From Catellatospora sp. TT07R-123 (GTDB taxonomy: Bacteria; Actinomycetota; Actinomycetes; Mycobacteriales; Micromonosporaceae), in the NCBI RefSeq assembly GCF_018327705.1, contig NZ_BNEM01000001.1, positions 1,302,001 through 1,366,000 on the forward strand: a DNA stretch of 64,000 bases, in the 5' to 3' direction. Of this stretch, positions 8,025 to 32,475 are shown in pieces. How positions within the stretch are numbered: position 1 is the first letter of the stretch; each line of letters begins with the position of its first letter. The notes below the pieces were generated by a model. It saw nothing but the letters and a program-made list of their open reading frames with translations, did not search any database and was not told where the DNA came from. A program made the position numbers and the translations under genes.

Positions 8025-9373
8025 GCGGCCGCCTCCCGCAGCTCGGCGACGATCTCGGCGTGGCGCTGCTCCGACAGCGGGTAGCGCGCGAGGAACACCA
8101 CGGCGAGCAGCCCGGCCAGCCCCGGGGCGAGCGTCATCAGCAGGTGCAGGCCGTCCAGCGTGGCCCGGGTCTGCTCCTGGTTGGCGACGTAGCCGACCGC
8201 GCCGAGCACCGCCAGGGCCACGGCCGCGCCGAGTGCCGAGGCGATCTTGGTCTTGACGATGTTCAGCGAGAAGACCAGGCCCTCGGTCCGGCGGCCGGTG
8301 CGCCACTGGCCGTACTCGACGGTGTCGGTGAGCATCGACAGCAGCGTGATGTTGGCCAGCCCGAACCCCACGCCCCCGAGCGCCGTCCACGCCATGACCG
8401 GCGTGAGCGAGGCGTACCCGGTGAACCAGGCCGCGACGGAGGTCAGCGACGTCGCCACGATGCCCGCCACCGCCAGGCGGCGCTTGCCCACCCGCCGGGC
8501 CAGCACCGGGCTGAGCAGCGAACCGGCGATCGTCGCCACCGCGAACACGCCGATGAACGCGGGCACCAGGCCGGGCGCGTCGAAGTTGTAGGTCAGGTAG
8601 TACACCGGGACGATGCTGCGCAGGGCGAAGACCGCCTCGGTGACCAGCATCGCGGCGAGCAGCAGTTGCAGCGGCCGGTTGGCGGCCAGCAGCCGGGCCA
8701 TGGTGCGCGGGCCGTACGGCTCGGCCGGCGGCGCGGGGCGCTCGCGGACGAACGCGGCGGTGAGCCAGGTCAGGCCGATCGCCACGGCGCCGTAGAGGAC
8801 GGCCACCAGCTGCCAGCCGCGCCGGTCGTCGCCCCCGGCCAGCAGCCCGACCAGCGGCAGGGTCACGATGTTGACCCCGATGTAGCCGACGCTGGCCAGG
8901 GTGCGCGGCACCATCACGATCGCGGTGCGGTCCTGGGCGTCGCTGCTCAGCGCGGCCGACATCGACCAGTACGGCACGTCCATCGCGCTGAACGCCATGC
9001 CCCACAGCAGGTAGCTGAGGTAGGCGAAGGCCAGTCTGCCACCCGTGCCCAGCTCCGGGCCGCTGACGCAGACGACGGTCGCGGTGGCCAGCACGGGCGG
9101 CACGAAGATGAGGTATGGCCGGAACCGGCCCCAGCGGGTGCTGGTGCGGTCGACCAGGGCGCCCATGACCGGGTCGAGCACGGCGTCGGCGGTGCGCACC
9201 ACGAAGAACAGCACCGCGACGGCACCGGGGGCCAGGCCGTAGTGGTCGGTGTAGAAGACGGCCAGGTAGGTGGCGATGAAGCCGTACACGATGTTGTTGC
9301 CCAGGCTGCCCCAGCCGTAGGCGACCTTGGTGCGCCAGCTGGTGCGGGGTGCGGCGACGGTGCCGATCGACAT
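8021..9373 (-). CDS. GPH-family (MelB-type) sugar:cation symporter
   Basis: 450 residues with about twelve hydrophobic segments. The N-terminal half carries the GPH signature: YGWGSLGNNIVYGF, then DPVMGALVDRTSTRWGRFRPY, where the Asp and the Arg-rich loop match the cation- and sugar-binding part of MelB-like transporters. It is the first gene of the operon and feeds galactosides to the coupled GH2 enzyme. The intergenic region upstream is AT-rich for this genome and holds palindromic operator-like sites starting ten bases from the ATG. Confidence 0.9.
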   Translation of the reverse strand: MSIGTVAAPRTSWRTKVAYGWGSLGNNIVYGFIATYLAVFYTDHYGLAPGAVAVLFFVVRTADAVLDPVMGALVDRTSTRWGRFRPYLIFVPPVLATATVVCVSGPELGTGGRLAFAYLSYLLWGMAFSAMDVPYWSMSAALSSDAQDRTAIVMVPRTLASVGYIGVNIVTLPLVGLLAGGDDRRGWQLVAVLYGAVAIGLTWLTAAFVRERPAPPAEPYGPRTMARLLAANRPLQLLLAAMLVTEAVFALRSIVPVYYLTYNFDAPGLVPAFIGVFAVATIAGSLLSPVLARRVGKRRLAVAGIVATSLTSVAAWFTGYASLTPVMAWTALGGVGFGLANITLLSMLTDTVEYGQWRTGRRTEGLVFSLNIVKTKIASALGAAVALAVLGAVGYVANQEQTRATLDGLHLLMTLAPGLAGLLAVVFLARYPLSEQRHAEIVAELREAAA

Positions 9374-9382
9374 GCGCGAGAA

Positions 9383-9409
9383 AATAACACGCGTGTGTCA
9401 TTTTTGACA
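9383..9409. promoter_or_regulatory. operator-like palindromes upstream of the symporter operon
   Basis: Positions 9387-9396 are the perfect palindrome ACACGCGTGT, inside an imperfect 20-bp dyad at 9383-9402. Overlapping it, 9396-9409 reads TGTCA-TTTT-TGACA. The site begins ten bases before the symporter ATG, so a bound protein would cover the 5' leader. The TetR encoded at the end of the operon is the obvious candidate, but this is inference from position. Confidence 0.5.
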
Positions 9410-9475
9410 GGCGCCCGCTTCCGGAAGCAGCTCACCCAATCGTCCTCATCGGATCGCCGTCACCCGGAAACCCTT

Positions 9476-9526
9476 GTGCCACAATTAAATGTCACCTTGA
9501 CAATAATAGTGGCACGCCCGTACGGT
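9476..9526 (+). promoter_or_regulatory. promoter with nested dyads for the membrane protein-nucleosidase cassette
   Basis: A consensus minus-35 TTGACA (9497-9502) is followed after 18 bases by TACGGT (9521-9526), the same minus-10 hexamer as the gcv promoter in this window. The minus-35 sits inside TGTCA-CCT-TGACA (9490-9502), which is nested in GTGCCAC arms at 9476-9482 and 9509-9515. This suggests repression by a dimeric protein. The TGTCA/TGACA half-sites also occur in the dyad upstream of the divergent symporter. Confidence 0.55.
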
Positions 9527-9559
9527 CGTCGATGTTTCGCCACGTCGAACGGAGGAGCC

Positions 9560-10126
9560 GTGGCCCGTCAGCGAACCGACGCCCCACTCACCTATTCCGA
9601 CCTGCTGGTGGTCGAGTACGAGCAGCTGAAGGAAGAGCAGCGCGCCCGCATCGCCAGCCGCGACAACCTCGTCTACGCCACGCTGGTGGCCGTCGGCGCG
9701 GTCGGCGCGGCGGCGTTGCAGTCCAGCCCGCTGATGCTGCTGGTGCTGCCACCGGTCTGCGTCATCCTCGGCTGGATCCATGCCGGCAACGACCGCAAGG
9801 TCTGGGAGATCGGCCGCTACATCCGCCAGCACCTGGCACCGCGCCTGGCCACCGGCGGCATGCCCGCCTTCGCCTGGGAGACGGTGCACCGCGCCGACAC
9901 CGGCTACCGCCGCCGCCGCCGGGTCCAGATCACCGTGACGCTGCTGACCTTCTGCGCCCCGGGACTGATCGCGGTCGGCGCGAACGTCTCCGCCGCCATC
10001 GGCTCGGCCCGCCTCGCGACGCTGGCGGCCACCGAGGTCGCCGGGCTGCTCACCCTGGCCTGGGCCATCGTCGCCAACGCCGACCGCGGCACGGACGCGG
10101 GAACCGCACCCCAGGACATGCCGTGA
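9560..10126 (+). CDS. four-TM membrane protein, first gene of the putative immune cassette
   Basis: 188 residues from a GTG preceded by GGAGGAG. The N-terminus is an amphipathic, charged helix (LLVVEYEQLKEEQRARIASRDN) followed by two hydrophobic segments at about 32-66, a soluble stretch with GNDRKVWEIGRYIRQHL, then two more segments at about 120-170. I do not recognise a named family. The charged helix leading directly into a TM pair recalls small membrane partners seen in bacterial defence operons, but this is only a resemblance. The stop overlaps the next start as GTGA, so both are made from one message. Confidence 0.75.
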   Translation: MARQRTDAPLTYSDLLVVEYEQLKEEQRARIASRDNLVYATLVAVGAVGAAALQSSPLMLLVLPPVCVILGWIHAGNDRKVWEIGRYIRQHLAPRLATGGMPAFAWETVHRADTGYRRRRRVQITVTLLTFCAPGLIAVGANVSAAIGSARLATLAATEVAGLLTLAWAIVANADRGTDAGTAPQDMP

Positions 10127-11940
10127 GCAGCCTCTTCGCCGACGACCCCCGGCCCGTCGACATGGCCGGGCCCGGCGCCGCCCGGATCCCCCGGCAGCGT
10201 CCGGCCGCGGAACCGGCCGGCCCCATGTCCTTGACCGGGGTCGAGACCAGCGAGCCGACCCGGTACCTGTGCACCCTGGTCCACGTCGAGCAGGAGCTGC
10301 GCGACGTCGTCGACGAGCACTTCCCCGCGTGGCGCGCCCGCGCCTGGGCGCCCTGCTACGGCATCGACCTGGTCGCGCTGCTGCGCCACAACCGCTCCGC
10401 CGCCCGGCTCGCGCACCTCAGAGACGCGGTGCTGACCGGGCTGCTGCTCACGGCAGCCACCGCCGCCGTGCTGTGGACCGGCTCGCTCGCCCTCGCGCTG
10501 TCCGTCGCCGTATGCCTGGTCGTGGCCGTGTCCGTGCTCCGGTGGGACCTGCGCCGACGCAAGATCTCGGCGCGGCAGGCACTGCGCACGCTGTTCCGCT
10601 ACGCCAGGCGCCAGGGCGACCAGTTCCTCCAGCGCGTCCTGGTCGGCGCGCTGGCGCTGGCCGCGCTGGCGGTCGTGGTCGCGTACCACCGGACGGCGCA
10701 GGTCGTCGTCGGCGTCATCACCGCCGCGGCCGTGGCCGCGTGGCTGGCCAACACGACGGTGCAGGTCATCGCCTATCTCCGGGCCCGGCGGGTGCTGACC
10801 GCGACCGGCGAGCTGGCCCGGCTCGGCGCGCGCATACCGGCCACGCTCGAAAAACGTGCCGAAGCGATCAGCGACGCCACGGTCCTGGTCTACGACCGCG
10901 AGCGGGCACGCTCCGCCCTCGGACCGTTCGTGGGCGCCGGTCATCTGCTGACCAGGTGGAACAGCGACCCGGTCGACGTGACCGTGCCGATGGAAGGCAG
11001 CATCGTCCGGCCGGTGGACGTCCTGGCACTGCACCGGCGGCTGGTCGCGGCCGTGGCGGAGCTCGGGCTGCCGAACGTGGTCTGCCGCCACCGCGTGTAC
11101 GTCGACGGCCGCTCCGAGCAGTACCTCCCCGACCTCCGGCGAGACGGCGGCGACGAACCGCCGGCGACCGTCCTGCCCGACCACCAGATCATGACCCGGG
11201 TCGCGCGTCCCGCCAAGTACCAGCGGGGCTACCTCTGCCTGCAAGCAGAGGAACCCGACGGCGAGGTCATCGTCACGGTCTTCGTGCGGGCGATCCGGGA
11301 GGGCGAGCGGCTTCAGCTCGAAGTCAGTGTGAACGCGCTGCCCGAGGTCACCTGGCCACGCCAGGAGAAGCCGGAGACCCCCCTGCTGATCCACCCGCAG
11401 GAGGAGAAGAAGCCACGCACCGTCCACGTACCCCCGCACCTGTTCCACGCCGTATGGCACGGGCTGGTGACAGGCACGCGGAGCACGCCGTCCGTGCTGT
11501 TCGCGGCGCCGAGCCGGACGGCGCTCGCGATCCTGCGCCCCGGGCTGCGCAAGGTCACCGCATGGCGGGACCGGCGCGGCATGGAGCGCGGCGACTTCGA
11601 CTTCGGCGCGAACGCCTCGCTGCGCGAAGACCTCGCGATGAACAAGAAGCTGCAGCACCACAACGCGTTCATCGACATGCTGACCCAGGCCGACCGGCTC
11701 CAGCGACGCGTCGTGGACGCCGTCGCCGCCTACCTGGAGGAGGCCGGCATCGACGCGTCGGAGTTCAGACGCCAGTCGGCCGCCACGATCGTCAACATGC
11801 AGCAGTACATCATCAGCACCATCAACAGCCAGGGCGGCGTCACGTTCGGCAGCAACAACACGATCAACAACAACAACGCCGTGCCACCGCAGCAGCAGAC
11901 CCAGGGACCGGGTGGCCAGCAGCCGCCCCAACAGCAGTAG
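10123..11940 (+). CDS. multi-TM protein with cytoplasmic domain and Gly/Asn motif plus Q/P-rich tail
   Basis: 605 residues from a GTG overlapping the previous stop. The N-terminal 100 residues contain a short soluble segment (CTLVHVEQELRDVVDEHFPAW). Two hydrophobic hairpins follow at about 105-140 and 185-232. The remainder, about 235-560, is soluble with mixed alpha/beta character and no nucleotide-binding or catalytic motif that I recognise. It ends in a helix (MQQYIISTINSQ), then GGVTFGSNNTINNNN at residues 571-585 and a Gln/Pro-rich tail. The same motif occurs near the N-terminus of the next protein, which suggests a homotypic contact. It is probably the sensor or adaptor of the cassette; function unproven. 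Confidence 0.75.
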   Translation: MSSLFADDPRPVDMAGPGAARIPRQRPAAEPAGPMSLTGVETSEPTRYLCTLVHVEQELRDVVDEHFPAWRARAWAPCYGIDLVALLRHNRSAARLAHLRDAVLTGLLLTAATAAVLWTGSLALALSVAVCLVVAVSVLRWDLRRRKISARQALRTLFRYARRQGDQFLQRVLVGALALAALAVVVAYHRTAQVVVGVITAAAVAAWLANTTVQVIAYLRARRVLTATGELARLGARIPATLEKRAEAISDATVLVYDRERARSALGPFVGAGHLLTRWNSDPVDVTVPMEGSIVRPVDVLALHRRLVAAVAELGLPNVVCRHRVYVDGRSEQYLPDLRRDGGDEPPATVLPDHQIMTRVARPAKYQRGYLCLQAEEPDGEVIVTVFVRAIREGERLQLEVSVNALPEVTWPRQEKPETPLLIHPQEEKKPRTVHVPPHLFHAVWHGLVTGTRSTPSVLFAAPSRTALAILRPGLRKVTAWRDRRGMERGDFDFGANASLREDLAMNKKLQHHNAFIDMLTQADRLQRRVVDAVAAYLEEAGIDASEFRRQSAATIVNMQQYIISTINSQGGVTFGSNNTINNNNAVPPQQQTQGPGGQQPPQQQ

Positions 11941-11948
11941 GAGCCCCC

Positions 11949-12815
11949 ATGTCCCACCCGGACCGGTACTCCATCGGCTCGATGAACGTGACCGGAGGCG
12001 CGATCTTCGGCGATGGCGGCACCATCACCAACAACTACAACGACGCCGCGAGCCCTCCTTCGGCACCGGCAGCGGCCCCGCCCGGCCTCAGCCGCACGCT
12101 GCTGCTCACCGTCACCGCGGCTGAGGAGGCAGCCGTCATCCGGGCGGTGACCGCCCTCACCCGGACCACCCCCGCCGACCGCTTCCTGCCGACCCAGACC
12201 GTCACCGCGCTCGGCACCGTCAGCCGCAGCGAGGTGCTGCTCAGCCGGGTCGGGCAGGGGACCCAGACGCCCCACTCCGCGGGCCCCGCCACCGCCGAGC
12301 TGATCCAGGCGATCAAGCCCGACTGCATCGTGCTGGTCGGCATCTGCTACGGCCTGCGCGGCCCGGCCCCGCACGGCTCCCAGTACTACGGTGACATCCT
12401 GGCGGCCGACCTGCTCTACGTCGCCGCGCACCACAAGCGGGCCGAGGTCCTGACCGAGCGCGGCGGGGCGGTCCACCCCTCCCCCAAGCTCATCAACCGC
12501 TTCACCCGCGCCAGCAGCACCTGGCCCGGCCCGGCGCGGGTGCACATCGGCCCGATGATCTCCGAGAGCGTGCTGGTCAACGATCCCGGTTACCGCGACG
12601 AGCTGCGCGCCCGGTTCCCGGAGGCGATCGGCGGCGAGATGGAGGCGGCCGGGGTGTACCCGTTCGCCACCCGGGCGAAGGTCGAGTGGGGCATGGTCAA
12701 GGCGATCTGCGACTTCGCCAGCCACAAGACCGACGACCACCACCTCCTCGCCGCCGCCAACGCGGCCGAGTTCGTGGCCCACACCCTGCGCAGCGGAGCC
12801 CTCGACCCGGCCTGA
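11949..12815 (+). CDS. PNP/UDP-phosphorylase-family nucleosidase with N-terminal Gly/Asn/Thr motif
   Basis: 288 residues. Residues 16-31 read GGAIFGDGGTITNNYN, followed by an Ala/Pro linker (33-46) and one nucleoside phosphorylase domain (about 49-285). The domain carries TVTAAEE at its start, the GICYGLRG and GDILAADL segments, and the MTA/SAH-nucleosidase-like active site: GGEMEAAGV (Glu230, Glu232) and AICDFAS (Asp255). All catalytic positions look intact. In fungal and bacterial immune systems this fold serves as an effector, including ATP-cleaving nucleosidases in Detocs, CBASS and Avs systems. The motif shared with the preceding membrane protein supports an effector role here. AGGAG overlapping the previous stop, eight bases from the ATG, couples its translation. 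Confidence 0.87.
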   Translation: MSHPDRYSIGSMNVTGGAIFGDGGTITNNYNDAASPPSAPAAAPPGLSRTLLLTVTAAEEAAVIRAVTALTRTTPADRFLPTQTVTALGTVSRSEVLLSRVGQGTQTPHSAGPATAELIQAIKPDCIVLVGICYGLRGPAPHGSQYYGDILAADLLYVAAHHKRAEVLTERGGAVHPSPKLINRFTRASSTWPGPARVHIGPMISESVLVNDPGYRDELRARFPEAIGGEMEAAGVYPFATRAKVEWGMVKAICDFASHKTDDHHLLAAANAAEFVAHTLRSGALDPA

Positions 12816-32257: not shown

Positions 32258-32442
32258 CTCCCCCTCTGTCATCGCTGCCTGAGAGCTTCGCCGTCGCGTG
32301 GACGGCTTGCACCGTGGGCGCGGGACCGTCGGGTCCCGACTTTCCAGAGTTCGCCTAGCCGCGGCGGTACATGGGCCTGAGAGATTCCGGGGAGAGTTGC
32401 TCCTTCGGCGTCCCGGTGGTGCCGGGACTCTCCCGCCGCGAG
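32258..32442 (-). promoter_or_regulatory. tandem glycine riboswitch
   Basis: Read leftward, the leader shows two aptamer units. The first (about 32440-32357) has GGCGGGAGAGTCCC, then GACGCCGAAGGAGCAACTC and AATCTCTCAGGCCCATGTAC. The second (about 32356-32258) has GAACTCTGGAAAGTC, GACGGCGAAGCTCTCAGGCA and GATGACAGAGGGGGAGG. The GCCGAAGGAGCAA and CTCTCAGG segments are the conserved glycine aptamer core. It controls gcvT-gcvH-glyA, presumably turning it on with excess glycine. Confidence 0.93.
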
Positions 32443-32475
32443 TCGTTCGGCGAGATATTCAGTTGTACGCCGCGT

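Follow-up and report, generated by a model that had tools for sequence, protein, structure and literature searches.

What links a predicted membrane protein to the nucleosidase encoded immediately downstream of it? The question is raised by three genes (A, B and C) at positions 9560 to 12815 of a 64,000-nucleotide stretch of the Catellatospora sp. TT07R-123 genome (contig NZ_BNEM01000001.1), hereafter the window. The C-terminal tail of B and the N-terminal head of C, a nucleosidase of the purine nucleoside phosphorylase (PNP) fold, share an asparagine- and glycine-rich motif (QYIISTINSQGGVTFGSNNTINNN in B and RYSIGSMNVTGGAIFGDGGTITNN in C). This motif is absent from an earlier reading made from the DNA alone (the sequence-only reading) and was found in the follow-up reported here. 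We consider it likely that B and C form a receptor-effector pair, in which B tails would template the C head by cross-beta assembly, leading to activation of the nucleosidase and loss of the purine pool. The features of the locus are:

9560..10126, forward strand: gene A, GTG start, 188 residues, four predicted transmembrane (TM) segments; proposed accessory component
10123..11940, forward strand: gene B, GTG start, GTGA overlap with A, membrane protein of 605 residues; proposed receptor
11803..11874, forward strand: C-terminal motif of B, residues 561-584, QYIISTINSQGGVTFGSNNTINNN, best local alignment to the C head
11949..12815, forward strand: gene C, ATG start, 8-base gap after B, PNP-fold nucleosidase of 288 residues; proposed effector
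11964..12041, forward strand: N-terminal motif of C, residues about 6-31, RYSIGSMNVTGGAIFGDGGTITNNYN

A locus-specific motif is shared by B and its partner

The tail and head of the window locus align with a score of 68, compared to a mean of 24.2 for shuffled heads, and none of 200 shuffles reaches 68. The motif is about 25-40 residues long, and its region contains 8.4% asparagine and 14.2% glycine, versus 1.7 and 7.2% in the rest of B. Heads judged by eye to be similar to that of C are found on its 13 closest homologues (P0005-P0017), e.g. NAGAVTFGDHSPAFGS.

Relatives of B were searched for in 354 genomes of the family of the window (Micromonosporaceae) and 40 B loci were fetched, mostly the top ones among the matches listed, with some skipped. 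For each pair, the last 75 residues of B were locally aligned with the first 75 of the partner, and own pairs were compared with shuffled pairs. In this first set, window included, 39 of 41 loci have a next gene on the same strand. Own pairs show a mean score of 60.4 versus 29.4 in shuffled pairs (0/20000 shuffles reach the observed mean), with the own head ranked first in 25 of 39; locus by locus, none of 200 shuffled heads reaches the score in 32 of 39. Alignments of the same B tails to heads or tails of other neighbors give means of 21.7-23.9. Genes that the caller had got wrong were then mended by reading the frames, which showed matching heads on the PNP proteins of L039, L054 and L067 and on the small partner of L163. 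The apparent fusion of B with its small partner at L163 (a 718-residue call) is a frame artefact, and tail and head match in their own frames.

At the level of the order, 27 genomes out of 298 had a B match, and 14 of the 27 belong once more to the family of the window. Loci were fetched from 14 of the 15 listed places outside this family and from six within it. A called same-strand partner is present in 12 of the 14 outside-family loci, where own pairs average 67.8 and non-cognate pairs 30.5 (0/20000 shuffles). Across the curated set, a same-strand gene follows B in 59 of 61 loci, own pairs average 67.8 versus 29.2 for shuffled pairs (0/20000), and the own head ranks first in 36 and among the top three in 51 of the 59.

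The tails, clustered on their last 50 residues, fall into 26 motif types; other cuts give 36 or 19 and the same picture. When each type is represented by a single locus, own pairs average 66.3 versus 27.4, the own head is first in about 22 of 26, and over 200 such draws the observed mean was reached by no permutation. Tail-tail and head-head similarities correlate with r = 0.75, the best of 5000 permutations being 0.12. Codons were compared in 52 loci, leaving out L163 and six pairs scoring below 45; different codons are used at 309 of 779 identical tail/head residues (40%), compared to 46% expected if independent. The locus-specific match is therefore kept at the protein level, and cognate tagging of B and its partner is strongly supported.

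B relatives show a patchy distribution (109 of the 354 family genomes). Named genomes were also scanned with a pattern, which yielded 23 loci (a part of these had been fetched before) in genera that include Phytohabitans, Actinoplanes, Micromonospora, Dactylosporangium, Sphaerisporangium, Planomonospora, Nonomuraea, Actinomadura and Streptomyces. Tail and head also match in the Streptomyces pairs L193 and L195, and the B tail of S. parvulus, FGANSTNNFGGNQSVGNNGTQTFGNNS, is paired with the head FGQGSTNNFGGNQSTGNNGTQTFGDGS of a CAP12/Pycsar TIR protein.

Partners were scanned with Pfam in 38 of the 39 first-set loci, the miscalled L054 being left out. They matched PNP_UDP_1 (18/38), DUF5955 (9/38; the three individual scores seen are all below the family cut-off) and CAP12-PCTIR_TIR (5/38), and no EAD-named family was among the seven Pfam families matched. 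One PNP partner also bears a bacterial Death-like domain (bDLD3), which is present in none of the 41 B proteins scanned. PNP, TIR and small partners carry the motif at their N-terminus; the only C-terminal placement is in a further PNP of L066 and L169, encoded upstream, so that three proteins with related motifs are found at each of these loci.

Several neighboring genes were noted by reading. Proteins resembling class III cyclase homology domains are encoded at L044 (3688-4416, reverse strand), L058 (7430-8194, reverse strand; no Pfam match) and L050 (gene +4, 9108-9896). They end in motif-like tails, e.g. VEGHNVALGNHNTFNR in L044 (score 42, reached by 1 of 200 shuffles), and from their sequences are possible extra tagged components near B. 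A NUDIX-like gene recurs by B pairs, mostly those with PNP (L054, L059, L060, L062, L063, L065, L066, L068, L070, L073, L154, L169 and L170), and some of these loci also encode a two-TM protein of about 270 residues (..WYRHFxxEFxxxWxxG..); judged from the sequences, either may possibly belong to a larger operon. Tyrosine-integrase-like genes lie near the B-PNP pair of L071 and L074, consistent with a mobile or defence-hotspot placement. At L052, L055, L056, L057, L058 and L064, B and a small partner stand beside genes resembling a vWA (TerY-like)/phosphatase/kinase triad.

The proteins of the locus and the limits of the trio

The three genes are all transcribed rightward in the order A-B-C, between genes for an MFS transporter and a periplasmic binding protein, and the GTGA overlap and 8-base gap described by the sequence-only reading were confirmed. 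Also borne out were its four-TM protein A, its large membrane protein B, in which no known sensor domain was found, and its assignment of C to the PNP family.

B was modeled with AlphaFold2 from an alignment of 41 B homologues (mean pLDDT 83.9). The N-terminal half shows four long helices (residues 83-119, 122-145, 165-188 and 190-225), compatible with two membrane hairpins, followed by an alpha+beta domain, further long helices and a tail. The tail, in which the motif sits, is of low confidence from about residue 572 onward, mostly with pLDDT of 50 or less. The hydropathy scan alone gives three TM segments. B is a membrane protein by topology prediction, and its C-terminus would face the cytosol. 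Only one of the 41 B homologues matches anything in Pfam at E <= 0.01 (a stray DUF3325, 0.0093), and none of them an NTPase family at that threshold. PADLOC models match none of the 41 at 0.01, nor the window A and B at E <= 1. The fold search of B returned matches too weak to name a fold, and a Walker A pattern is found in one of 61 B proteins (L052). B therefore does not look like an NLR-type NTPase.

C matches Pfam PNP_UDP_1 (PF01048) with an E-value of 1.6e-11 and 44.5 bits, the curated cut-off being 25.1, and the active-site residues Glu230, Glu232 and Asp255 are all in place. Its best solved relatives are methylthioadenosine/S-adenosylhomocysteine (MTA/SAH) nucleosidases (3eei, 1.9e-7). 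It scores far under the NCBIfam equivalog cut-offs (38.6 bits versus 169 for PRK05584.1; 32.3 versus 73.8 for TIGR01704), so that the housekeeping MTA/SAH role that the sequence-only reading had named as a possible objection is not supported. C also matches PADLOC PDC-M60C and a PN effector model. Its wider PNP relatives bear PF19960, PF19961, PF19964, PF01582 or PF00931, which we take to be EAD, TIR and NB-ARC domains.

A reciprocal search with C gave 39 of the 354 family genomes with E <= 1e-15. Matches that enter the head and have neither stop codons nor a very long frame are limited to the four A-B-C genomes (window, G075, G080 and G082). Those of G076 and G015 also start at C residue 19-20, but the former contains two stop codons and the latter lies in a frame of 1418 residues; most others start at about residue 41-56, two at 35-36, and some are later fragments. 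As far as the heads of these other proteins were read, the nucleosidase body thus looks like a module that gains a tag where it works with B. At L037, a gene on the opposite strand (gene +2, 8715-10619 in B orientation) encodes a protein of 634 residues, whose PNP body lies at the C-terminus and is related to C (1.3e-37); the gene adjoins the A-B-C homologue.

The hydropathy scan places the four hydrophobic segments of A at residues 37-55, 58-76, 122-140 and 153-171, and its homologues share the core EYxxLKEEQxxRIxxRDNLxYATL...LGWxYxxNDxKVxxIGxYI. They are present in 51 of the 354 family genomes. Of the 61 B loci, four (window, L037, L038 and L039) have the core pattern immediately upstream of B, and none of 20 other fetched A loci has a called B gene. 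A PNP-family gene lies within the fetched stretch (8-10.5 kb) in 15 of these 20, adjoining A in eight as read from gene calls (at L118 the caller missed A). Chance is an unlikely reason for this link, because the genome of the window contains just six PF01048 matches, and A seems to be a general accessory of PNP effectors. A may be a SLATT-type pore, for which Pfam gave weak matches (SLATT_1 in 2 of 24 members, best E 0.1).

The trio put forward by the sequence-only reading is accordingly rejected as the conserved unit, A separating from B and C, B being paired with other effectors elsewhere and the PNP body mostly lacking the head motif. Two of the objections foreseen by the sequence-only reading, homologues without their partners and lack of co-occurrence, thus apply in part to the trio, but not to the unit of B and its partner.

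Proposed mechanism and competing explanations

In the mechanism that we favor, the N-terminal helices would anchor B in the membrane and its C-terminal motif would be exposed to the cytosol, where C, a putative purine nucleosidase of the PNP fold, carries the same motif at its N-terminus. On sensing a trigger, perhaps phage-caused or membrane stress, B would cluster, and the clustered tails could assemble into a cross-beta (amyloid-like) seed, on which the matching C head would be templated. Templating would gather and activate C, the purine nucleotide or nucleoside pool would be destroyed, and growth arrest or death would follow. The tag would keep the pathway separate from others in the same cell, and A may assist PNP effectors at the membrane, as an anchor, a pore or a regulator. 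The earlier proposal, in which a nucleotide-cleaving effector is switched on by a sensor in the membrane, gains from the matched B-C motif, from PNP and TIR partners at other loci and from the PNP with the Death-like domain, and it loses its three-gene form. More broadly, it is about as likely as not that actinobacteria contain a large class of NLR-independent, membrane-receptor prion-like systems, in which dozens of matched, probably orthogonal cross-beta tags would connect one receptor family to interchangeable effectors (PNP nucleosidases, CAP12/Pycsar TIRs and small DUF5955-like proteins).

Several observations weigh against the favored mechanism. Eight pairs fall below the top three ranks: in L044 (a PNP without head motif), L045, L052, L055, L057 and L154 the own-pair score is weak or absent, and L051 and L162 score well. 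No partner is found downstream of B at L061 and L161. By length, 31 of 59 partners are small proteins with no enzyme activity assigned (the two miscalls, L054 and L163, cancel out in this count). The genes outside the window come from a home-made caller with several errors, the four A-B-C loci are not enough to prove that A has a role, and the flanks of the window locus are ordinary metabolic genes. Average resemblance to two published motif peptides is modest: for one BASS3 peptide, of the NLR-associated families discussed below, the B tails score a mean of 19.6 versus 15.2 for controls (equaled by 3 of 200 shuffled peptides), and for an archaeal motif peptide 20.4 versus 16.1 (1 of 200).

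The tags could instead be non-amyloid docking peptides (e.g. a short beta-strand zipper) that hold B and its partner in a permanent complex, with no templating. What has been demonstrated is pairing specificity alone, and a docking code would also explain the related motifs on three proteins at L066 and L169. However, an asparagine- and glycine-rich motif of such length, without confident structure in the model, is unlike globular adaptors and like known amyloid signaling motifs. A few tails also come close to BASS3: by pairwise alignment, 8 of 61 lie above the 99th percentile of controls against the peptide, which is reported to aggregate, and the L057 tail INIRDIKGRNIMLGDHN closely resembles BASS3 VDLRDAKGVQVGDGN. 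We regard docking as rather unlikely.

Under another explanation, C would serve metabolism, in MTA/SAH salvage or nucleotide repair, while tethered to a transporter-like B, and would have no immune role. The solved relatives of C and the metabolic genes in the flanks are in line with it, but the equivalog scores, the match of C to PADLOC PN effector models, the domains borne by its wider PNP relatives, the patchy occurrence of B and the presence of a CAP12/Pycsar TIR or a small protein as partner at other loci all argue against it, and it appears very improbable. Finally, the likeness of tail and head could be a by-product of DNA duplicated where the two genes meet, through gene conversion or a recombination repeat. 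This would suit adjacent, often overlapping genes and the L067 pair, which is close at the DNA level (0.89), but it was rejected as barely credible, since the codons of identical residues are nearly randomized, DNA identity is 0.56-0.77 in 11 of 12 loci examined and the same match is seen in 26 motif types.

Elsewhere in the window, tandem glycine riboswitch aptamers (Rfam RF00504, 67.7 and 41.4 bits) were found at 32259-32445 on the reverse strand.

Comparison with known systems

Detocs, CBASS and Avs have nucleosidase effectors of the PNP fold, and C shares this fold; unlike them, the A-B-C locus shows no receiver domain, cyclase or STAND sensor, and A and B have no PADLOC counterpart. The EACC1 two-gene system of actinobacteria, in the part of its description considered here (Kaur 2020), combines a single-TM domain with an often caspase-bearing protein. 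It resembles the present loci in pairing a membrane component with a variable effector, and differs in that B is multi-TM and none of the 38 partners scanned has a caspase. In the EAD conflict systems (MoxR-vWA, GAP1, TRADD-N and bDLD3), PNP, TIR and other effectors are coupled homotypically to core components, and adjacent copies tend to be most alike (PMC7159879, PMC8195603). The coupling principle is the same in the B-partner pairs, but EADs are described as domains, whereas here it is a motif of about 30 residues, and B has no Pfam family. In fungi, the PNP_UDP-NLR motifs (PUASM) and HET-S/NWD2 link an effector to its receptor through a short shared amyloid motif, as presented in part of one study (PMC9815663). 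PUASM systems thus also tie a PNP-fold effector to its receptor; in contrast to B-C, they are fungal and NLR-based, carry the motif on the effector C-terminus and have no membrane receptor.

The pairing follows the logic of the NLR-amyloid signalosomes, to which HET-S/NWD2 and RHIM, the BASS families and the fungal PNP_UDP motifs belong. For NLR-associated BASS, sections of two papers (PMC7889193, PMC8086366) describe ten families (BASS1-10) between Bell and NLR proteins of filamentous actinobacteria, with a short motif at facing termini and TIR effectors too. B and its partner are likewise encoded by adjacent genes whose facing termini share a short locus-specific motif, in many motif families. 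They differ in that B is a membrane protein without the NLR NTPase, that the motif is at the C-terminus of B and the N-terminus of the partner, the reverse of BASS, where the effector, typically a Bell-domain protein, has it at the C-terminus, and that the partners are PNP, CAP12-type TIR or small proteins. The system is therefore not filed as BASS-NLR, since it lacks the NTPase and has the motif positions reversed; by analogy, it may be a signalosome with a non-NLR membrane receptor. Whether fungi or bacteria have NLR-independent signaling amyloids is raised as an open question in a passage of a 2021 review of amyloid signaling (PMC7889193). The B family provides concrete candidates, with a membrane receptor, several partner types and motifs short enough to be tested as peptides; if the proposal is true, prokaryotic prion-like immunity or cell death would gain a transmembrane tier, along with a natural library of matched tags of about 26 types.

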